Shown here piece after piece: positions 3,029 to 26,150 of a DNA stretch of 27,546 nucleotides. The position numbers were made by a program, and so were the translations under genes. Each line of letters starts with the position of its first letter. Positions within the stretch are counted from its first letter, which is position 1. Below the pieces are notes generated by a model. It did no database searches, had not been told where the DNA came from, and worked only from the letters and a program-made list of their open reading frames with translations. The stretch is from a virus: IMG/VR virus record IMGVR_UViG_3300021519_001130, positions 1 through 27,546 of that record, one strand, 5' to 3'.

Positions 3029-3451
3029 CTAGAAAGGCAATGTATCCTGCGGGAATTCGCTTTCAATGACCGCTGAGTTGCCTGATTCAACCACCTTGAA
3101 CCCATCTGAGCGCTCCAGGACCATGTGAACGTAGTTATGCAATCCCCAGTTTTCAACTAGATTGCGAATTACTGATTCAGCAGCCAGGGTTGAGCATGTG
3201 TATAAGTCAAACTGCACAAACGGTGGGTTTGTTTCATCCCAAACGTGCATTGCAATATGCGAAGTCTCAATCAAGCAACCGACCGTCATTCCCCTATTAC
3301 CCTCTTTGGTGACATAGGCAGCAATCGGTCCAGCGGCAATTTTCATTCCAATTTCCTCTACGAGTTTTTCAATCCATAGAAGAGCAGCACCTTTATCCAT
3401 CGGCGGGTTGCTCATGTACCCATTTAAGAGTAGATGATTATGTAGTGCCAT
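3029..3451 (-). CDS. S-adenosylmethionine decarboxylase-like (SpeD/SpeH family)
   Basis: 140 residues, close to the ~125-residue prokaryotic SpeH proenzymes. The core IETSHIAMHVWDE aligns with the pyruvoyl-forming ESHxTxH segment of SpeH: Ser64 is the residue that would become the pyruvoyl group, His69 matches the catalytic or processing His, and FDLYTC supplies the Cys (Cys86). In SpeH the self-cleavage occurs at Glu-Ser; here the residue before Ser is Thr63, with Glu at 62. Classical members decarboxylate AdoMet to feed aminopropyl groups into spermidine. Some relatives in bacteria and phages decarboxylate arginine or ornithine instead, so the substrate is uncertain. No spermidine synthase is seen in the window. 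It starts one base after the WhiB stop. Confidence 0.78.
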   Translation of the reverse strand: MALHNHLLLNGYMSNPPMDKGAALLWIEKLVEEIGMKIAAGPIAAYVTKEGNRGMTVGCLIETSHIAMHVWDETNPPFVQFDLYTCSTLAAESVIRNLVENWGLHNYVHMVLERSDGFKVVESGNSAVIESEFPQDTLPF

Positions 3452-3452
3452 A

Positions 3453-3851
3453 TTAAAATCCGTTCTGTATGAGCCAGTTCTGCTCTTCCCTATTGACTAT
3501 TTGATTATAGGTGTTCGTAGCCCTGCTATTTGCGAGGCCAACCCTGTTATGTCTGATGTTGAACCGCCTTCGGATTGCATCTCTTTGCCTCTCCGTGAAC
3601 CCACCCCAAATGCCAAACGCTTCCCACTGTACCGAGTACTCCAAACACTTCTTTCTGACAGGGCATGTCTGGCAGATTTCAATCGCTTTTTTCTGGTTAT
3701 CAAGTTGGTCCTTATTCATTCCAAAGGTCGGGAACCACCATGATGTATCGTAACCAGAGCAAATACCTCCTTCTGGGGGGAACGGTGCGGCATTCCTATT
3801 TTCTGAAGCAATTGCTCTTTGTGTTCTGGAATAAACGTCTACATCAGTCAT
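3453..3851 (-). CDS. WhiB-family iron-sulphur transcription regulator
   Basis: A 132-residue Wbl protein with all family features. The four cluster cysteines are Cys31 (GGICSG) and Cys60, Cys63, Cys69 (CxxCxxxxxC in ICQTCPVRKKCLEY). The G[I/V]WGG turn is FGIWGGFTERQR at about 79-90, followed by a basic stretch (RDAIRRR) and a longer C-terminal tail. Wbl proteins bind a [4Fe-4S] cluster, contact sigma factor and are confined to Actinobacteria and their phages, so this gene is the best host indicator in the window. Phage Wbl proteins can interfere with host WhiB regulators. AGGAA lies about six bases before ATG 3849-3851. The gene follows the frameshift gene by 15 bases and precedes the SpeD-like gene. 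Confidence 0.95.
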   Translation of the reverse strand: MTDVDVYSRTQRAIASENRNAAPFPPEGGICSGYDTSWWFPTFGMNKDQLDNQKKAIEICQTCPVRKKCLEYSVQWEAFGIWGGFTERQRDAIRRRFNIRHNRVGLANSRATNTYNQIVNREEQNWLIQNGF

Positions 3852-4821: not shown

Positions 4822-5226
4822 TCACTCCAACTCGGTTATTTCCATAATGATTTTAGATTCTCCAGATATTACTGGTGCCTCAAAAGTGAGACGCCTTACA
4901 ATGTCTGGACCATCTTCCCAAAGTATACCAGCATCAACAAGTCCATCTATACAGGCCTTCGCTACGGGGAAGTGTCCGCCAGTGTCTGCCCTACCTTGAC
5001 GATTTCTTCGGTGCGGAGTGAACGTTATTTCAACGGCTTTAAGTTTTTTTGGTATTTTTCTTGCTATTGCCACTGTTGCCGTTGCGTCGCGCCACTCTTT
5101 TACAAGTTTTGCTCTTTGCATGTGGTGAATTGTGCGCTCTTTATTTAGCGTCCAAAGTTTCTCTCCCCACACTTCAACAACAAATGTGCGTAACTCTTTA
5201 GGCTGCTTATTTTTCTTTGGAGGCAT
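4822..5226 (-). CDS. rusA: RusA-like Holliday junction resolvase
   Basis: 134 residues from ATG 5224-5226 (a TTG four codons upstream is possible), matching the ~120-residue RusA family. The characteristic segment is GRADTGGHFPVAKACIDGLV followed by AGILWEDGPDIV. It provides the acidic residues (Asp after Arg-Ala, Asp before Gly-Leu, Glu-Asp before Gly-Pro) and the conserved Lys of RusA. The N-terminal strand VEVWGEKLWTLNKERTIHH resembles the family's substrate-binding start. RusA dimers cut four-way DNA junctions, resolving recombination or replication intermediates before packaging. It overlaps the CmoA-like gene end by about 20 bases. The first acidic motif departs from the usual DxDN (here ADTGG), so activity should be treated as probable rather than certain. 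Confidence 0.8.
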   Translation of the reverse strand: MPPKKNKQPKELRTFVVEVWGEKLWTLNKERTIHHMQRAKLVKEWRDATATVAIARKIPKKLKAVEITFTPHRRNRQGRADTGGHFPVAKACIDGLVDAGILWEDGPDIVRRLTFEAPVISGESKIIMEITELE

Positions 5227-5920
5227 AGATTCCCACAAAGTTAAGGTTTTGCCAGAATGGCTGAACTGTTGTAAATCCAGCCTCTTTTAGCAACCGAATG
5301 TTTTCTGATGTCCGCAGCGGAACGAGAATATTTTCAAGCGATGCACGTTTTGCCGAAATTTGCTCATCGGTATAGTGGTTATCTTTTTTCATTTGAAGAT
5401 AAACATCAACAAGGTGCTCTTGTGCAACATGGTTTTCACCAAGAACCTTTTCAACCAAAATAAAACATCCGTTATGCGTTACAGAGTTATAAACCTGACG
5501 CAGCAATTCCTGTCGGTACTCAATGGGCACAAATTGTAAAGTGAGTATTGACAAAACGATGTCATACCTAAGCCGCGTAAGTTCCACTTCCTTTAAGTCG
5601 GCATGAACTATTGAGACAGTATCGTCTATGGAAAATCTCTGCCTTGCTCTGGTGACCATCGCAGATGAGTAATCAATGCCCACATAAGAAAGGTGAAGAG
5701 AACCACTAAATTTTTGCTGCATCATGGCAATCATCTCTCCATGTGAGCAACCCATATCAAGAATGAATCCGCCATTGGGCACGATTGGTTCAACCATACG
5801 AATTACGGCACTGCGCATTTCTTCATACCCTGGTATTGAACGGCTCAGCATGTCGTCAAAAACAACTGCAACGCTTTCATCAAATGACCATTCTGTTCCA
5901 GCAATTATTTCATCTTTCAT
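5207..5920 (-). CDS. CmoA-like carboxy-S-adenosylmethionine synthase homologue
   Basis: 237 residues, near E. coli CmoA (247). Similarity, judged from memory, runs end to end. EWSFDESVAVVFDDMLSRSIPGY corresponds to the CmoA N-terminal WTFDERVxxVFxDMxxRSxPGY. Next are motif I ILDMGCSHG, motif II VGIDYSSAMV, then LTLQFVPIEYRQELL, and finally HYTDEQISAKRASLENIL matching the CmoA GYSELEISQKRxMLENVM segment. Arg192 matches Arg199 of E. coli CmoA, which holds the carboxylate of carboxy-SAM. CmoA converts SAM plus prephenate to carboxy-SAM, the donor for CmoB in tRNA wobble-uridine modification. No CmoB is seen here. ATG overlaps the ParB-methyltransferase stop (ATGA). It could instead be a methyltransferase in a CmoA fold, but the specific motifs argue for carboxy-SAM binding. 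Confidence 0.8.
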   Translation of the reverse strand: MKDEIIAGTEWSFDESVAVVFDDMLSRSIPGYEEMRSAVIRMVEPIVPNGGFILDMGCSHGEMIAMMQQKFSGSLHLSYVGIDYSSAMVTRARQRFSIDDTVSIVHADLKEVELTRLRYDIVLSILTLQFVPIEYRQELLRQVYNSVTHNGCFILVEKVLGENHVAQEHLVDVYLQMKKDNHYTDEQISAKRASLENILVPLRTSENIRLLKEAGFTTVQPFWQNLNFVGIYASKEK

Positions 5921-7464
5921 AGTTCTATTCCCAATCTTTGTGAAAATGCTGCTTTTGCTTCCTTGACCATTCCCAATCGCCTACCGCCTGGATGCGGAAG
6001 GTCAAATTCAAATTCAATTGCTGCTACTAAATCTTCTTTACTAATCGGGCGAGGGTTTATTCCTACCGCTTGAACAAGTCCGTTTTTGGCGGTATTAAAT
6101 ACTTCCACAGTTTTAAAACCATTTAAAACGAGTTCCTTAAATTCAATTGGCGTATGGTATTTCTGGACTTTTGGCTTTGCTGCCACATCGGCAACAATTA
6201 TTCGCGGTTCATAATCAAGCGGGAAGCCACCACTAATGGTGTCGTGACCCTTCTTGACATCGCCCTGTGCGTGGTTATGCCACCTATCGGATTCGCTTGA
6301 TATTGCAGAGGTATAGAACTTGGTTGTTGGAGAACAAAGAGAAGCAACAAGATTCACCACATGCACCCTGTCTTGGTAAAATGGAATGCTATTAAATACG
6401 CTTGACATGAATATTGAAGACCACTGTGTCCCGTTTGCGACGCGCTCAAGAAACCTTGCCGTGAGTGCTTGTGCCCCCTCAGTATCAATTGTTTCGTTGT
6501 CTGGGCCCAGAAGGAATGGCTCAAACGGTATTGCATCAACGCCCATGTTCTGAAGTATTTCTGTTTTATCGCAAAGTCCAGCACCAAAATCAATCACGGT
6601 ATTTCCGTAGTACTGTTTCCATAACTCAATATGTTTTGGGTCATTGAGGTGAAATGCTCCGTTGCGGTTTCCAGATGATACAAAATTACGCAGGAAGTCT
6701 TCCAAAAATGTTGGAGTAAGAATTGTTTGTTTTTGGTTTCGTCGCCTAAAAGAGTTATGCCTGAGTAGGTCTGCGTAGCGCTCTTGGATGTCAAAGTCCA
6801 TTGAAAGTAGGTTCATCATTGCCTTGACTTCTTCTTTTACGCTTGATGGAACAACCACACAGTCAATAAAATCAATATTCTCCATTGCGGCAAAGGTTAA
6901 CCGTGCCCTTCCATTGAGTACCTCATTCTCTGGGGTGCAGACAATTGGCATTGAGGGAAGGCCCTTGGAGCGAAACTGACCAGCCATCATTAGTGCATGG
7001 TTTTCTGCCCATCTCTCATTTAACTGTATTAATCTCAGGACTGATTGTGGCTTTGTTTTTAGTACTGGATACCACTCTGGCGTATCTACCTCAATGTCTG
7101 GCAGGGCTGTAATTCGGTCAAACAAACCTTCCATTGAAAAAAGTTGCTCCCGCATGTCGGCAGACGACTGATTCTTATAAACATCGTTTGTGGCACGATT
7201 GTAAAGAACGTTTATGCCCATACGACGCTCTACTGGCATCTCGGGTGTTCGTACTACGGGAACCATCTTTGCGCCCATCCTGGAGGCAACCAGGTGCCTC
7301 TGGTGACCGCTTAAAATCTCGCCGTTTACATCCGCATAGATTGGTAGCAGCCAGCCAAATTTGCGCAGGGAGAGTTCAACCATGTTGAGCCTTTCGGGGT
7401 CTGCTTTTCTTGGGTTGTAGGCAGACGGCCTAAGTTCATCAATTGAGACTAGTTTTGCTTTCAT
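5917..7464 (-). CDS. ParB-like domain(s) fused to a SAM-dependent methyltransferase-like domain
   Basis: 515 residues from ATG 7462-7464, which overlaps the upstream stop (ATGA). Residues about 1-85 form a ParB/Srx fold: IDELRPSAYNPRK, then NGEILSGHQRHLVASRMG with the ParB nucleotide-binding-type GHQRH. Residues about 155-215 look like a second degenerate ParB unit (GLPSMPIVCTPENEVLNGRA, then RLTFAAMENIDFIDCVVV). The C-terminal half carries a class I methyltransferase motif I, TVIDFGAGLCDKTEIL (about 290-300), with an acidic FEPF at the expected end of strand 2, and SSVFNSIPFYQDR near motif IV. A DPPY/NPPF amino-methylase motif is absent. ParB-fold proteins fused or adjacent to methylases are frequent in phage DNA-modification loci. 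The substrate of this enzyme is unknown. Confidence 0.72.
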   Translation of the reverse strand: MKAKLVSIDELRPSAYNPRKADPERLNMVELSLRKFGWLLPIYADVNGEILSGHQRHLVASRMGAKMVPVVRTPEMPVERRMGINVLYNRATNDVYKNQSSADMREQLFSMEGLFDRITALPDIEVDTPEWYPVLKTKPQSVLRLIQLNERWAENHALMMAGQFRSKGLPSMPIVCTPENEVLNGRARLTFAAMENIDFIDCVVVPSSVKEEVKAMMNLLSMDFDIQERYADLLRHNSFRRRNQKQTILTPTFLEDFLRNFVSSGNRNGAFHLNDPKHIELWKQYYGNTVIDFGAGLCDKTEILQNMGVDAIPFEPFLLGPDNETIDTEGAQALTARFLERVANGTQWSSIFMSSVFNSIPFYQDRVHVVNLVASLCSPTTKFYTSAISSESDRWHNHAQGDVKKGHDTISGGFPLDYEPRIIVADVAAKPKVQKYHTPIEFKELVLNGFKTVEVFNTAKNGLVQAVGINPRPISKEDLVAAIEFEFDLPHPGGRRLGMVKEAKAAFSQRLGIEL

Positions 7465-8780
7465 TGCTCCGTGCGGCGGGCGCTCTTGCGCTTTGAGCGG
7501 CGTTGGCGCGTACTCACCCATGAATCATCTGGGATATTCAGCATCTCTCCTATGCCGCTGCAAACTTCTTCATAGGAGAATCCAAATGCTTTGAACATTT
7601 CTTCTTCCCATGCATCAAATTGCTCGCGGACAAATTTAAACTCCCACCTTCCAATAATCGCAGTGATATTCCTTTGAACGTCATCATCTTCTTCTTTTAC
7701 TGGAGCGCTCTTGATGCCCCACCCAGCAACATCGCGCAGAAGGTCGTCTACTGCATCTCCGTCATAGCCAGTCCCCTGAAACGATGTCATTCCGCGCAGC
7801 ATTTCTGCTAATTCAACATGGTCATAAGTGCCAAGGTCTGCAGTTTTATTGTCTACTAAAACAATTCTTGCTGCTGCTTCATCGTCAACATCAACAAATG
7901 TTGCTGCTATTTCTTTCCAGCCCAGCATCTTTGCTGCTTTCCATGTATGGTTACCAACAAGGATTGAGTTGTCAGAATTATTTACTACTATCGGTCTGAA
8001 CTGACCATTCTCGCGCAAACTCTCTGCGATACTCCCAACGTCACCCTGACGGGCATTCATCGGATATGGGAACACGCTGTTAATGTCAACATTTGTTGTC
8101 CCAGCGATAACGGATTTCATTCCAGATTTTTCAACCGTCTTTTTGCGGACTGTCTTTTTGCGCGCTTTTGGAGGACTGGCAACAGCGCCACTCAGATTTA
8201 ATCTGCGCTTTAACTCAACAACAACTGAATTGTCATCTCCGTAGGCCTTCATAACATCACTGGCCCAATTTTCATACACGTCGTCGTCAACCATGATTCT
8301 GTATGAGCCAACGCAGACACGGATTTCTTCTCCAACCTTGCCAGTTCGCTCTGATTCTGGCGCGGTGAACTCACCAGCACCATCAAGAAGCGACTGCAAT
8401 TGGTCAACATCAACTTGATTAAAACCAGTTCCATCAAGACTTGATAAAGATTGAAGAAGTTCTAATAATCTAAAATCATCATATGAAGAAGCATCTGAGG
8501 TTCTGTTGTCTGCAAGGACAATCTTTTGCGCTTCAAGTTCATTGACGTCCACCCAAGAAACAGCAATTTTTGTCCAGCCCAAACTTCGTGCGGCGCGCCA
8601 TGTGTGGTTTCCAGCGAGGATTGAGTTATCGGCACGGTTTACTACAATCGGTTTATATTGACCGTTTACTTCAAGGGACTTGGCAATTGCCTCAACATCA
8701 CCGCGACGTGGGTTTTGGTGATATGACTTTAGGGTTGAGATATCAACAATCTCTGTGTCTACTTTAATCTGCTCGTCCAT
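7461..8780 (-). CDS. Tandem ParB-fold protein
   Basis: 439 residues from ATG 8778-8780 (a TTG two codons upstream is possible). Two clearly homologous ParB/Srx domains are present. The first has LKSYHQNPRRGDVEAIAKSL, GQYKPIVVN and AGNHTWRAARSLGW. The second has YPMNARQGDVGSIAESLREN, GQFRPIVVN and VGNHTWKAAKMLGW. Each is followed by an (L/A)DN(R/K)T motif and a helical tail. A basic linker rich in KKTVRKK joins them. The usual GxRRxxA of ParB is GNHTWxAA here, the version found in phage ParB-like proteins linked to methylases and nucleases. ParB domains bind DNA and CTP or related nucleotides, so this may be a DNA-sliding or nucleotide-binding partner of the next gene. A nuclease role cannot be excluded. 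Confidence 0.8.
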   Translation of the reverse strand: MDEQIKVDTEIVDISTLKSYHQNPRRGDVEAIAKSLEVNGQYKPIVVNRADNSILAGNHTWRAARSLGWTKIAVSWVDVNELEAQKIVLADNRTSDASSYDDFRLLELLQSLSSLDGTGFNQVDVDQLQSLLDGAGEFTAPESERTGKVGEEIRVCVGSYRIMVDDDVYENWASDVMKAYGDDNSVVVELKRRLNLSGAVASPPKARKKTVRKKTVEKSGMKSVIAGTTNVDINSVFPYPMNARQGDVGSIAESLRENGQFRPIVVNNSDNSILVGNHTWKAAKMLGWKEIAATFVDVDDEAAARIVLVDNKTADLGTYDHVELAEMLRGMTSFQGTGYDGDAVDDLLRDVAGWGIKSAPVKEEDDDVQRNITAIIGRWEFKFVREQFDAWEEEMFKAFGFSYEEVCSGIGEMLNIPDDSWVSTRQRRSKRKSARRTEQ

Positions 8781-8802
8781 GAGCAATAGTATAGACTATG
8801 TA

Positions 8803-9618: not shown

Positions 9619-10311
9619 TTATGCTCCTCGTTGTTTTCTTGCTTCTGCAATTGCATCCCAGCCACCTGGAACCTGTTTAGATGTTCCAGCATCAACAAAC
9701 TCCAAAGACGACCAGTGAGTCGCTAGAGCCATTGCTGTTACGGCAGCACCTGGGAATTTGATTTTATAATTTGCGACACGAATATAGATTTCATCAGCGG
9801 TTGCAGAGGATTCCTTCAAAAGTTTAACTGCTGCGTTATACTTCTTTCGTTCCTGCGTATTCAGTGTTTCCTGATTAACGCCACAGGCGACAAGCGTTGC
9901 AGTCCAAATGTCATCAACTTTTACTGGCTTTCGTGTTCCCTCATCAATTGACATTACTTTTACTGGGACAATTTCAAGAGATACAGAACTTTCTGCCTTT
10001 TCTGACTCCCAAGACCTTTTATCTTTTGCTGGGCGAGCCCTATCTGCTTTTTTATCTGTAATCAAAACTGAATACATGGTGCTTGTACCAGTTCTATAAT
10101 CTCTGCGTAATTCACCAAGTTTTTCCAAGTTATCAAGACAGCGACGAACGGTACGTTCGCTTAAACCAGTCTTCCACGCAATAAGCGCTACTGATGGCCA
10201 CGAATTTGTACCGTCTTCCCATGCATTATCTGCAATCGCAAGAAGAACAAACCTATCGTTTCCCGTTGAATCGGATTTCTTAAAAACCCTACTCATGCAT
10301 TCAACTGACAT
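9619..10311 (-). CDS. Phage replication protein with N-terminal winged HTH
   Basis: 230 residues; ATG at 10309-10311 overlaps the previous stop (TAATG), with AGGAG seven bases upstream. The N-terminal ~90 residues form a winged helix of the type used by replication initiators and primosome proteins: DRFVLLAIADNAWEDGTNSW, PSVALIAWKTGLSERTVRRC, and then LDNLEKLGELRRDYRTGTST. A basic linker (KKADRARPAKDKRSWESEK) leads to a helical C-terminal domain with NYKIKFPGAAVTAMALATHW, as in replication proteins that recruit the helicase. It probably binds the phage origin or interacts with the helicase; which of these cannot be decided from sequence alone. Confidence 0.75.
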   Translation of the reverse strand: MSVECMSRVFKKSDSTGNDRFVLLAIADNAWEDGTNSWPSVALIAWKTGLSERTVRRCLDNLEKLGELRRDYRTGTSTMYSVLITDKKADRARPAKDKRSWESEKAESSVSLEIVPVKVMSIDEGTRKPVKVDDIWTATLVACGVNQETLNTQERKKYNAAVKLLKESSATADEIYIRVANYKIKFPGAAVTAMALATHWSSLEFVDAGTSKQVPGGWDAIAEARKQRGA

Positions 10312-10856
10312 TATTTTCTCCTAATAGAAACTTTTTCTGCTTTTTCAACTTCACAAAAGTCATCTGGGTTAAGACCAGGGAGCATAGCCCGTAATGCGGT
10401 TACTCGCCAATCTCGGATTGCTGCGGCTTCGGTAATATTCCGAACTACGGCGTCTATAATTGGCTTTGCTATTGTGATTAAATCAATTACTTCGCCAGTG
10501 TTAGGGTCAATTACTGTCCCACCATCACCAGAGAGAGACATGTTAACAACTGCTTCCAATAATGTTTTATGCTCCCAATTTTTGCGGCTTGAACTGACCT
10601 TGCGCTCGGCGGTATGATTGCCATGTACGAGGACCTTTTCACCGTTGAGACGCATCCATGTAACAAGGAGTTCGTTTACAGAGTCTTCCACCTCTCTAAT
10701 TTCACGCTTAAGTTCACCGATTTCAATCAAGGTGTTGAAGAGTACGTCTGGGTCAATCTCTGTAGCACCATCCTGGATACTCCTAACATCAGGGCGAACA
10801 CTTTTGGTAAGCGTATCCATCATGTTAAAAATCCCGCCAATTAAATTTTCGCTCAT
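10311..10856 (-). CDS. Hypothetical protein of the replication block (181 aa)
   Basis: ATG at 10854-10856 chosen because it overlaps the HIRAN stop as ATGA and has GGAG about six bases upstream. The protein shows helical segments (PDVLFNTLIEIGELKREIRE) and a basic patch with NHTAERKVSSSRKNWEHKTL. A section with NTGEVIDLITIA follows, and it ends in EKAEKVSIRRK. Its length and surroundings suggest a DNA replication or repair accessory protein. I do not recognise a family. Confidence 0.65.
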   Translation of the reverse strand: MSENLIGGIFNMMDTLTKSVRPDVRSIQDGATEIDPDVLFNTLIEIGELKREIREVEDSVNELLVTWMRLNGEKVLVHGNHTAERKVSSSRKNWEHKTLLEAVVNMSLSGDGGTVIDPNTGEVIDLITIAKPIIDAVVRNITEAAAIRDWRVTALRAMLPGLNPDDFCEVEKAEKVSIRRK

Positions 10857-11182
10857 TGTTTTCTCCATACTCTAATTTTTAAACCTGGTTGGTCTAAGTT
10901 TTCTGCTGATACAAGGATTGATTCAATTTCTGCAAGCCACGGTTTCCCGCAATCAATTTCGCTAGCAATCACCGATGCAATAAATTTTGGGATGTGCCCA
11001 AGCATCAAGCCATTATGCTTTACCTTAATTGCGTTTACATCGTACGCATTGTTTTTATCTCGCTCTAGCGTTACACCAAGAGAACCTGAAGCGACGCTAG
11101 CGCTAAGACCAAATATGGATTGCGGGTAATTTTCACAGAATGAAACGCCCACAACTTTTGTCGTGAAGGCGTCTGGGGTCAT
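10853..11182 (-). CDS. HIRAN-domain protein
   Basis: 109 residues that are essentially one HIRAN domain: a first strand with KVVGVSF, then LERDKNNAYDVNAIKVKHNG (RD..N.YD.NAI.V is the family hallmark) and GHIPKFIASVIA. HIRAN domains recognise 3' ssDNA ends or damaged DNA and are best known at the N-terminus of the eukaryotic SNF2 helicase HLTF. Stand-alone bacterial and phage versions occur. Here the gene is separate from, but encoded on the same strand as, the SNF2 helicase at 24-26 kb. It overlaps the upstream annealing-protein candidate by four bases (ATGA) and the following gene by four. Confidence 0.85.
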   Translation of the reverse strand: MTPDAFTTKVVGVSFCENYPQSIFGLSASVASGSLGVTLERDKNNAYDVNAIKVKHNGLMLGHIPKFIASVIASEIDCGKPWLAEIESILVSAENLDQPGLKIRVWRKQ

Positions 11183-12063
11183 TCTTCGTCTCGCGAAAGC
11201 GCCTCATACATGTTAATCATTTGAAGATACTCAACCTCTGAAATCATCTCGTCCCAAGACGATGGGTCTCCAAACGCAAGCACAATTTCTTTTTGTGCGT
11301 CTTGTGCAAGTAATGCAATCAGGCTTACAAGTGGCGCTGACGCAACAAGGTTTTCCTCTTTGCGAGAATTTTGAATTCCCTGCAAGGTGATAATCAGATT
11401 GTTCAAATCGCCTTTTTGCATTGGCCAAACTCTGCCGTTCAACTTGTCATGCTCTTCACGCAGTGTCTCAAGTTCATCTGGGGTTAAGTCTGCACACATG
11501 GTCTTAAATGTTGCGTGCGCATCATTTGATTCATCCTGCGACTTCCAACCAGTCAAAAGTGGTTTCTGCTGCTCTTTTTCAGGAGCCTCTTTGGATTCAA
11601 TTGCTGGCACCTTATTCTCAATAACGTTGCCAGCAATCATCGCTGATTTTGTCTCAATGCTTTGATTGACAACGTTCTGAACATCTGCGGTCACATTTTT
11701 CTTAACACCATTTTTTGTGTCACGAAACTTCAGAAGAATCTTCAGGTCTGTCATTGTGTCTGGGTATCCAGCCTTCTTTAGTGCACGGCCCATTGCCTTT
11801 GAGCAAAGAGCATGCCAAGAGTCCGTGTCTTTTGCACCACGAACATCACCCTGCGATTTGAATGCAGTAATGATTCGGTCATCACCAGTAAAACGACTGA
11901 CTTTTGCAATGCAAAGTTTTTCATCTTTTTTGGTGAATGTCGCTGGGATGTTTACATCCGCTGCAGTTCCTTCGCTGAAGTCAACAGTGGCATCTGGCCA
12001 ATCTGCTTTAAACATCGCCCACCGAACTGAGGTGGATAGGTAATCGTCATAATTAATCGGCAT
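11179..12063 (-). CDS. Probable ssDNA-annealing (ERF/Rad52-like) recombination protein
   Basis: 294 residues with a strong Shine-Dalgarno (AAAGGAGG) before ATG 12061-12063. The N-terminal ~130 residues contain YLSTSVRWAMFKADWPDATV, then DVRGAKDTDSWHALCSKAMG and RALKKAGYPDTM. The SKAMGRALKKAGY signature is the conserved segment seen in phage annealing proteins (AxxxxxGRALxxxGY). A Lys/Glu-rich linker leads to a helical C-terminus (TFKTMCADLTPDELETLREE), which in this class often binds SSB. The expected role is annealing of complementary ssDNA in phage recombination. The family assignment rests on this motif and its context (HIRAN, RusA, replication genes). Confidence 0.6.
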   Translation of the reverse strand: MPINYDDYLSTSVRWAMFKADWPDATVDFSEGTAADVNIPATFTKKDEKLCIAKVSRFTGDDRIITAFKSQGDVRGAKDTDSWHALCSKAMGRALKKAGYPDTMTDLKILLKFRDTKNGVKKNVTADVQNVVNQSIETKSAMIAGNVIENKVPAIESKEAPEKEQQKPLLTGWKSQDESNDAHATFKTMCADLTPDELETLREEHDKLNGRVWPMQKGDLNNLIITLQGIQNSRKEENLVASAPLVSLIALLAQDAQKEIVLAFGDPSSWDEMISEVEYLQMINMYEALSRDEE

Positions 12064-23993: not shown

Positions 23994-26150
23994 CTATGGC
24001 TTAGTTTTATTATAAAAACGTTTCATCAAATCGCCGATAATGCTCTGTTGTTGGACTTCATCGCCATCCGTAACAGCATCAACAACGGACCTTTTAGCCT
24101 CAATAAGGTCATAGATATCCTCGTCAATGGTATTGGCCCCAATTAGGTACCAAGCCTGAACGCTGTTTTTTTGTCCAATTCTGTGGGCTCTATCTTCGCA
24201 CTGGTCATGTTCGCCTGGCGTCCATCCCTGCTGAACAAAACAAACATCCGAGGAGGCGGTGAGGGTAAGTCCAACTCCACCAGCCTGAATATTCAAAACA
24301 ATAACTCTGCTCTTTGGGTCAGTCTGGAAAGAGTCAACAGCATGCTGCCTATCTTCCATTGAGTCTCTACCACTAACGCGCAGGTTTCCATAACGCGCAG
24401 CGAGTTTGTCAACTACAGATACGTTATGCGCAAAAATAATCAATTTCCTATCGCAAGATTCAAGGAAAGAATCAATCCACTCAATCACCGATTCCATTTT
24501 TGCATCTGCTGCTAACCGCTTCAAAACGGTAGTCCTGCTCAAGTGCTCTGCTGAGTCAGATGTTTTATAGCCGTTCTCTGAAAGAAATGCAATCAAATCT
24601 TTTTCTGCTTTTTTGTACTCTTTCCACCCATCACCAGACGGTTCAATATGAACGACATTTCGCGTCTTTGCTGGGAGTTCTGTAAGTACCTCATCCTTGG
24701 TTCGGCGCATATAACAGTTCTGTCGCAACTTAAGATTTAATTCACCAAGATTTGATGCGCCCTTTGTATCCCACCCGAACCCATTATGCTTTGCATCCGT
24801 GTAGCGCTTTAGGAATGCCCACTTGCCGCCAAAGCGACCAATCATCCCAAGAACCTCAAGTTGACTGACCAACTCTTCTGGCCTATTTGTAACTGGAGTT
24901 CCAGACAACAGGAGAACGGTCCCAGACTGTGGAATACTCTTTGCGATATCCCTTACCGCGGCAGTACGTTTTGTCTTTGATGTTTTAATGTAGTGAGACT
25001 CATCAAGAACTAATCCCATTGGGGAAAGATGGAGTATCGGCTCAACAAACCGCCCGACAATGTCATAGTTGACAATGTTTATATCGGCGCTATTGATGTC
25101 GGTCTTTGAAGAAACAACATTTGTGCTTCTATGCGGGAGCCACTTATTTAATTCGCGCCTCCAGTTTTCCTTTAAAGATGCTGGACAAACGATTACGGCT
25201 GGGAATGCATTTCTGTGCTCTAGCGATGCAATAGCCTCTACTGTTTTCCCAAGACCCATTTGGTCGGCAATCAAGCATCGTCCGACTTTTGACACATAAG
25301 CAACCGCGGCTCTCTGGTATGGCATGAGGGTGCCGTTTAGTGTCGGTACATCAATATCGGCATCCGTTGATGCTGATTGCTCCAATAGTTCTGCCGACTT
25401 CTTTGTCAAATCAAGAATGTTTTTGCGCAACTGAGCAGAAATATCTAAATCGTATTTGTCGGCAAACTCAAGAACAGAAATTGATAGTGGGGCAAGCCAG
25501 CATTTTTTCTTTACATCCCATCTGCGTTGGGGAATGGCCTTAATATCCGTGACTGCTGATTCGCTGTATGGAAATTTGATAAGTGCAAGACCGCGCTTAT
25601 CAAGCGTTATTGATTTCTCTGTGTCAATCATGTCAAACTCTGGTAATTGTGTTTGGGCTTCTTCGGAAACCGTGAAATTGTATTTATTGGCTATCTCTGC
25701 AAGTTTTAGTTTAGCCGATTCTGGAGCAAACCAAACAGAAACTGCTGTATTCCAAACAATGTCTGGAATTTGTTTAATTTCAGCAATGACCTGTTCGTCA
25801 TACTCGGAGCGTATTACAAAGTACTCATCTACTTTAGAGATTTTTCTTTTTGGTCCAGTATCATTTATTTGTTTTATCTCGTCAACTGGGTCACTTGAGG
25901 CTCTTTTTGGAGTCTCAATTTCATCGTAGATAATTCCATAGTTCTTTAATTGCTTGGAGTATTTTGCAAGCATTAGCCACGCACTATAAGCAATTGACGG
26001 CGTCCATAAAGAATCTGGGATTAGCGCTAATTGTGTTCCAAACCTAGAATCTGGGCGAGAGAATCCAACCCCATCTTCTGATTGAGCGCCATCGCAAGCA
26101 AGCGCAAGAGCCCTTACCGCTTTGGAAAGTTGAGAGTAATTCTTGTCCAC
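23994..26150 (-). CDS. SNF2-family helicase with tandem HARP-like repeats
   Basis: 718 residues from GTG 26148-26150. SNF2 motifs: I CLIADQMGLGKTVEAIA (~292-308), Ia VIVCPASLKENW, II GLVLDESHYIKT (DESH, ~379-390), III LLLSGTPVTNR, IV KLIIFAHNVSVVDKLA, V IQAGGVGLTLTASSD, VI DQCEDRAHRIGQ. Upstream, residues about 109-165 and 187-240 form two similar units (EYDEQVIAEIKQIPDIVWNT; SAVTDIKAIPQRRWDVKKKC then WLAPLSISVL), which look like the HARP domain of SMARCAL1. That enzyme is an annealing helicase acting at stalled forks. The likely role is ATP-driven DNA remodelling of phage replication or recombination intermediates. The HARP reading is by eye and should be tested by structure comparison. Confidence 0.88.
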   Translation of the reverse strand: MDKNYSQLSKAVRALALACDGAQSEDGVGFSRPDSRFGTQLALIPDSLWTPSIAYSAWLMLAKYSKQLKNYGIIYDEIETPKRASSDPVDEIKQINDTGPKRKISKVDEYFVIRSEYDEQVIAEIKQIPDIVWNTAVSVWFAPESAKLKLAEIANKYNFTVSEEAQTQLPEFDMIDTEKSITLDKRGLALIKFPYSESAVTDIKAIPQRRWDVKKKCWLAPLSISVLEFADKYDLDISAQLRKNILDLTKKSAELLEQSASTDADIDVPTLNGTLMPYQRAAVAYVSKVGRCLIADQMGLGKTVEAIASLEHRNAFPAVIVCPASLKENWRRELNKWLPHRSTNVVSSKTDINSADINIVNYDIVGRFVEPILHLSPMGLVLDESHYIKTSKTKRTAAVRDIAKSIPQSGTVLLLSGTPVTNRPEELVSQLEVLGMIGRFGGKWAFLKRYTDAKHNGFGWDTKGASNLGELNLKLRQNCYMRRTKDEVLTELPAKTRNVVHIEPSGDGWKEYKKAEKDLIAFLSENGYKTSDSAEHLSRTTVLKRLAADAKMESVIEWIDSFLESCDRKLIIFAHNVSVVDKLAARYGNLRVSGRDSMEDRQHAVDSFQTDPKSRVIVLNIQAGGVGLTLTASSDVCFVQQGWTPGEHDQCEDRAHRIGQKNSVQAWYLIGANTIDEDIYDLIEAKRSVVDAVTDGDEVQQQSIIGDLMKRFYNKTKP

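Follow-up and report, generated by a model that had tools for sequence, protein, structure and literature searches.

What is a homologue of CmoA doing in a phage, directly behind two genes for ParB-fold proteins? The question is raised by IMG/VR virus record IMGVR_UViG_3300021519_001130, a linear sequence of 27,546 nt, probably a fragment, which was analysed as a whole and is called the window here. At 5207-8780 its minus strand carries three consecutive genes, in the order double ParB-fold protein, ParB-methyltransferase fusion (P2) and CmoA homologue (P1). In phage S-B43, the phage's own CmoA makes carboxy-SAM, CmoX uses it on cytosine C5 of DNA, and CmoY adds glycine (PMC12783734, December 2025). 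Phage DNA carboxymethylation from carboxy-SAM is thus already known, and what would be new in the window is the type of enzyme that P2 represents.

The locus

Table 1. Features of the P2 locus; all lie on the minus strand of the window.
Feature	Position	Strand	Basis and remarks
CTATACT -10 box	8788..8794	-	7 bases ahead of the ATG at 8780
Double ParB-fold protein	7461..8780	-	starts with the ATG at 8780 (439 aa); the operon's first gene; PF02195 and phrog_723
P2, ParB-methyltransferase fusion	5917..7464	-	515 aa; phrog_5475, E=6e-95; AlphaFold and Foldseek; candidate carboxymethyltransferase
P1, CmoA homologue	5207..5920	-	237 aa; TIGR00740, 172.6 bits; predicted carboxy-SAM synthase
RusA-like Holliday junction resolvase	4822..5226	-	phrog_34, E=4e-10; start overlaps the end of cmoA

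P2 had been listed from 7521. We corrected its start to codon 20, the ATG at 7464, because a relative that is 89% identical (L006) has a stop within the first 19 codons. Given this start, both junctions within the trio are ATGA overlaps of 4 bases, and a gene overlap of this kind is the usual sign of translational coupling. An earlier note on this DNA, made from the sequence alone, had described three consecutive genes, coupled or overlapping, for a double ParB-fold protein, a ParB-methyltransferase-like fusion and a CmoA homologue. The gene arrangement is confirmed, with the start of P2 moved, and the first protein does have two ParB-like stretches, found by Pfam (ParB_N, PF02195, E=5e-18) and by PHROGs (phrog_723).

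In relatives the double ParB gene has the same start ATG as in the window, and in most of them (L006, L011-L015, L017, L018) the CTATACT box lies at about the same distance from it. This spacing suggests a leaderless transcript that starts at the double ParB gene. The RusA-like gene likely belongs to the same operon as cmoA; it is outside the conserved module, its homologue following cmoA in close relatives only (12 loci).

Elsewhere in the window, a WhiB-like transcription regulator at 3453-3851 (minus strand; phrog_472, E=2e-19) suggests an actinobacterial host for the phage. Adjoining it at 3029-3451 on the same strand is an S-adenosylmethionine decarboxylase homologue (phrog_3125, E=8e-10), a second SAM-using enzyme of the fragment. 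A helicase is encoded at 23994-26150 (minus strand); it corresponds to the central part of a large family of phage helicases (phrog_62, E=1e-116), and there is a weak match to a family of DNA methyltransferase-helicases.

A conserved module

A chance trio can be ruled out, because all three genes are conserved in unrelated phages. In an all-frame comparison of seven genomes (the window, the complete phages HJ05 of Aeromonas, SM1 of Pseudomonas and Evaa of Gordonia, and three other viral records), the only genes present in at least three of the other genomes were those for ParB, P2 and CmoA. We further counted P2 loci from viral contigs together with prophage loci from a genome collection, taking only loci with room for the neighbouring gene. 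On the viral contigs every P2 gene is followed, on the same strand, by CmoA. When the prophage loci are added, CmoA lies at most 2.5 kb downstream in 126 of 129 loci and upstream in one more; the sole exceptions are the prophage loci L102 and L106, where ParB and P2 are followed by a HAD gene and there is no CmoA. One locus (L236) has a HAD gene and CmoA without ParB or P2. About 84 of the 50,697 records of a phage collection carry CmoA, and full-length P2 occurs in 14, which belong to phages that have CmoA as well (HJ05, Evaa and the Pseudomonas SM1 group). ParB, P2 and CmoA are a conserved module, carried by phages or prophages of Gordonia, Aeromonas, Pseudomonas, Verrucomicrobia, Firmicutes and others.

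The HAD gene encodes a small HAD-like protein (motif DLNYTLV; phrog_32036, function unknown) and stands between P2 and CmoA at L109 10057-10551, in about 75 other P2 loci and at L003 2633-3190 (minus strand). It is found in most Verrucomicrobia prophages and in Evaa and is absent from the window's group, so we rejected it as a fixed part of the module for the window. An apparent P2-CmoA fusion in L143 was likewise set aside as a likely assembly join or deletion, its CmoA part starting in mid-domain. In many carriers (L029, L109, L003, L002) the module stands directly before the terminase genes, a position that suggests expression or action near packaging.

The CmoA homologue

By sequence comparison and predicted fold, P1 is a member of the CmoA family, and it very probably makes the rare cofactor carboxy-SAM. 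Its residues 10-235 can be aligned with E. coli CmoA and H. influenzae YecO, sequence comparison with the PDB ranks 1im8, 4gek and 4iwn first, and the predicted fold has 1im8 and 4gek among its top fold matches, with TM-scores of 0.84-0.88. The match to TIGR00740 (E=1e-50, residues 9-235) stays below the curated cut-off of 193.3 bits. The SpCmoA type (S-B43 and S-B05), a proven maker of carboxy-SAM, also misses it with 115.6 bits, a lower score than that of P1; the cut-off is therefore set too high for CmoAs of phages.

The earlier note had matched Arg192 of P1 to Arg199 of E. coli CmoA and had taken this residue as key. The first point stands, since the full-length alignment does place R192 in the column of R199, which in E. 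coli CmoA forms a salt bridge with the carboxylate of the carboxy-SAM cofactor (PMC3663124). The second is weakened. The window and most relatives have the arginine; the column has Glu in SpCmoA, Thr in SM1, Asn in HJ05 and Ala in Evaa. Because the proven phage enzyme has Glu there, Arg199 supports the CmoA call and is not required for it, and we rejected it as a decisive test.

The fusion protein P2

P2 matches phrog_5475, a family of unknown function, over its whole length. Pfam detects in it only ParB_N, at a weak E=0.0013 that falls short of the Pfam cut-off, and misses the methyltransferase domain, which is clear in the predicted fold. In the AlphaFold model (pLDDT 91, pTM 0.88) a ParB-fold domain and another ParB-like stretch precede a class I SAM-methyltransferase fold at the C-terminus. 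Foldseek matches the N-terminus of this model to ParB and Noc structures, so that both ParB-fold proteins of the locus do contain ParB_N (P2 by way of its fold), and the C-terminus to class I SAM methyltransferases such as CcbJ and ToxA. The fusion claimed in the earlier note is therefore real. Among 38 sequences the invariant residues include D292, F293, G294, G296, E315, N358, S359, P361 and F362, which cover a signature for SAM binding, D-F-G-x-G (292-296), an acidic residue (E315) and, after strand 4, N-S-x-P-F (358-362). P2 is a ParB-METHYLTRANSFERASE of unclassified type.

Judged by sequence and model, the methyltransferase domain lies outside the CmoX, CmoB and N6/N4-methyltransferase families. 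Profile comparison of P2 with CmoX, CmoB and CmoA gave no recognisable relationship: the probability was 0.3 for CmoX, and 23 for E. coli CmoB over 69 columns only. The search for a direct link of this domain to any of the three yielded nothing firm. P2 does not have the combination of PF00145 homology, SPPC motif and Arg350 equivalent that marks CmoX, nor PF01555 together with [DNS]PP[YFW], which marks the N6/N4 amino DNA methyltransferases. PF01555 was not found in the window, HJ05, SM1 or Evaa. We did not adopt N-S-[VI]-P-F of P2 as an amino-methyltransferase motif; a generic class I loop fits at least as well.

Known users of carboxy-SAM

As the earlier note had remarked, no CmoB is visible: of the families that mark it (PF08003 / TIGR00452), PF08003 was not found in the window, nor in HJ05, SM1 or Evaa. 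A PF00145 match was found nowhere in the window, and the CmoX type of PF00145 was not found in HJ05, SM1 or Evaa, while the S-B43 control gave it. The window is a fragment of 27.5 kb, and the rest of the genome could encode further users of carboxy-SAM.

Loci were also collected by their CmoA. In the window's CmoA group, P2 is present at 60 of 73 loci and CmoX at none, and 12 of the remaining 13 loci end at a contig edge on the P2 side. With the S-B43 CmoA group it is CmoX that is present (66 of 80 loci), and P2 is present in none. Thus P2 and CmoX replace each other beside CmoA. Five weak matches in P2 loci (about 45 bits) were considered as hidden CmoX and rejected; they are without SPPC and look like ordinary C5 methyltransferases. 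A third context of CmoA is seen at L090 4989-6657 and in L340-L356, from Erwinia jumbo phages, where CmoA adjoins an asparagine synthase-like gene and neither CmoX nor P2 was found within about 10 kb.

What P2 may do

On balance we favour the view that the operon is a phage DNA-modification module, in which P1 makes carboxy-SAM and P2 carboxymethylates nucleic acid, most likely phage DNA. P1 would convert SAM and host prephenate to carboxy-SAM, and the class I methyltransferase domain of P2 would bind it and transfer the carboxymethyl group to nucleic acid, with the bases of the phage's own DNA as the most likely acceptors. The ParB-fold domains of P2 and the separate double ParB protein would bring P2 to DNA, where the charged carboxymethyl groups would resist restriction; in some phages these groups are possibly amidated further. 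Because profile comparison finds no recognisable kinship of P2 with CmoX, CmoB or CmoA, the use of carboxy-SAM by P2 rests on gene partnership. From this partnership and the fold, it is likely that P2 uses carboxy-SAM, and overall fairly probable that it does so on DNA. More tentatively, P2 might be the first member of a second class of DNA carboxymethyltransferases that depend on carboxy-SAM, a class of independent evolutionary origin, fused to ParB and acting at a position that is not cytosine C5, such as an exocyclic amine. The product would be a natural DNA base not described before, spread widely among the phages and prophages of many bacterial phyla.

It is, of course, possible to see P2 as an ordinary ParB-guided DNA methyltransferase that uses SAM, and the CmoA homologue as a second ordinary methyltransferase or as an independent passenger. 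ParB is often fused to ordinary phage DNA methyltransferases, as the match to phrog_498 and the Type II methyltransferase matches in PADLOC indicate; some partner CmoAs are without Arg199, and the CmoA fold is common to other SAM-dependent methyltransferases, such as CysG, ordinary ones included. An independent passenger, however, would not accompany P2 in 127 of 129 loci across many phyla. All 27 partner CmoAs of P2 that were scanned match CmoA models. Most relatives, like the window, have Arg199, and SpCmoA, a proven enzyme, is itself without it. We consider this explanation unlikely.

Nor does it seem probable to us that P2 uses carboxy-SAM on RNA or protein, or that the pathway serves to drain SAM as a counter-defence, instead of modifying DNA. 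The Foldseek matches do place the P2 domain closer to small-molecule methyltransferases than to DNA amino-methyltransferases, and SAM depletion has been raised as a possible side effect of the CmoX pathway (PMC12783734). But the ParB fold, present both in P2 and in a protein of its own, points to DNA; SM1, HJ05, Evaa and many prophages have the terminase genes next to the module; and draining SAM would need no P2 at all. This alternative we hold to be quite unlikely.

That the phage CmoA supports the wobble modification cmo5U of host tRNA through host CmoB is its textbook role and agrees with the PHROGs label (tRNA methyltransferase), but it is very unlikely here, since, of the 19 hosts of P2 prophages, Vibrio and Photobacterium alone have a CmoB that passes the curated cut-off and the other 17 show none, the phages with the module have none either, and the partnership with P2 would be left unexplained.

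The hypothesis of the earlier note, that P1 provides carboxy-SAM and the ParB-linked methyltransferase or another enzyme spends it on phage or host nucleic acid, perhaps altering host tRNA, can therefore be kept in part. CmoA as the synthase and the ParB-methyltransferase as the likely user agree with the pairing of the two genes and with the finding of neither CmoX nor CmoB in the complete genomes; alteration of host tRNA does not fit the hosts.

Prephenate and the carboxyl group in HJ05

CmoA takes prephenate as its second substrate, and DAHP synthase opens the pathway by which prephenate is made. Aeromonas phage HJ05 encodes such an enzyme, annotated as hypothetical, three genes after cmoA (L001 6257-7420; PF00793, E=1e-49), and it may raise the supply of prephenate. 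About 3 kb beyond this gene lies one for an asparagine-synthetase-like ATP-PPi enzyme, also annotated as hypothetical (L153 4288-5505, which is HJ05 10287-11504) and weakly similar to CmoY. It is of the class of the amide ligase CmoY and is a candidate amide ligase acting after P2. Both enzymes fit a carboxymethyl handle, and both are seen in this one phage only.

Implications

Natural carboxymethylated phage DNA was reported only in December 2025, for a single transferase family, and P2 adds a second candidate type beside CmoA. If our reading is correct, phages have a second, separate route to carboxymethyl DNA modification, the ParB-methyltransferase fusions of phrog_5475 gain a role, and there is a new enzyme that places carboxyl handles on nucleic acid. 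The module is present in cultured phages, namely the SM1 type of Pseudomonas, HJ05 of Aeromonas and Evaa of Gordonia. A full-text literature search for ParB, CmoA and phage together, with preprints outside its scope, found only PMC12783734, and for the Samunavirus group our literature search turned up no publication that deals with DNA modification.

Comparison with known systems

Phage ParB-fused DNA methyltransferases (phrog_498, Type II) resemble P2 in having an N-terminal ParB fold followed by a SAM-binding Rossmann domain, and in lying near terminase. They differ from it in that the C-terminal domain of P2 is not PF01555 and a CmoA partner is added.

The bacterial CmoA-CmoB pathway to cmo5U34 in tRNA shares with the window the CmoA family, its fold and the Arg199 of P1. 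Unlike that pathway, the window and related phages have no CmoB, P2 does not match it, and most hosts are without it.

The closest parallel is the CmoA-CmoX-CmoY system of Synechococcus phage S-B43. There too a phage CmoA adjoins an enzyme of methyltransferase fold, CmoB is absent and ParB-domain genes are often near, as was noted for CmoX (PMC12783734); an asparagine-synthetase-like enzyme is also found in at least one phage with the P2 module, HJ05. The same study found no N6 or N4 candidates linked to CmoA and did not describe a partner of the P2 type (PMC12783734). CmoX is a homologue of cytosine-C5 methyltransferases (PF00145, SPPC motif, Arg350), whereas P2 has neither the family nor the motif and, unlike CmoX, carries its ParB domain in the same chain.
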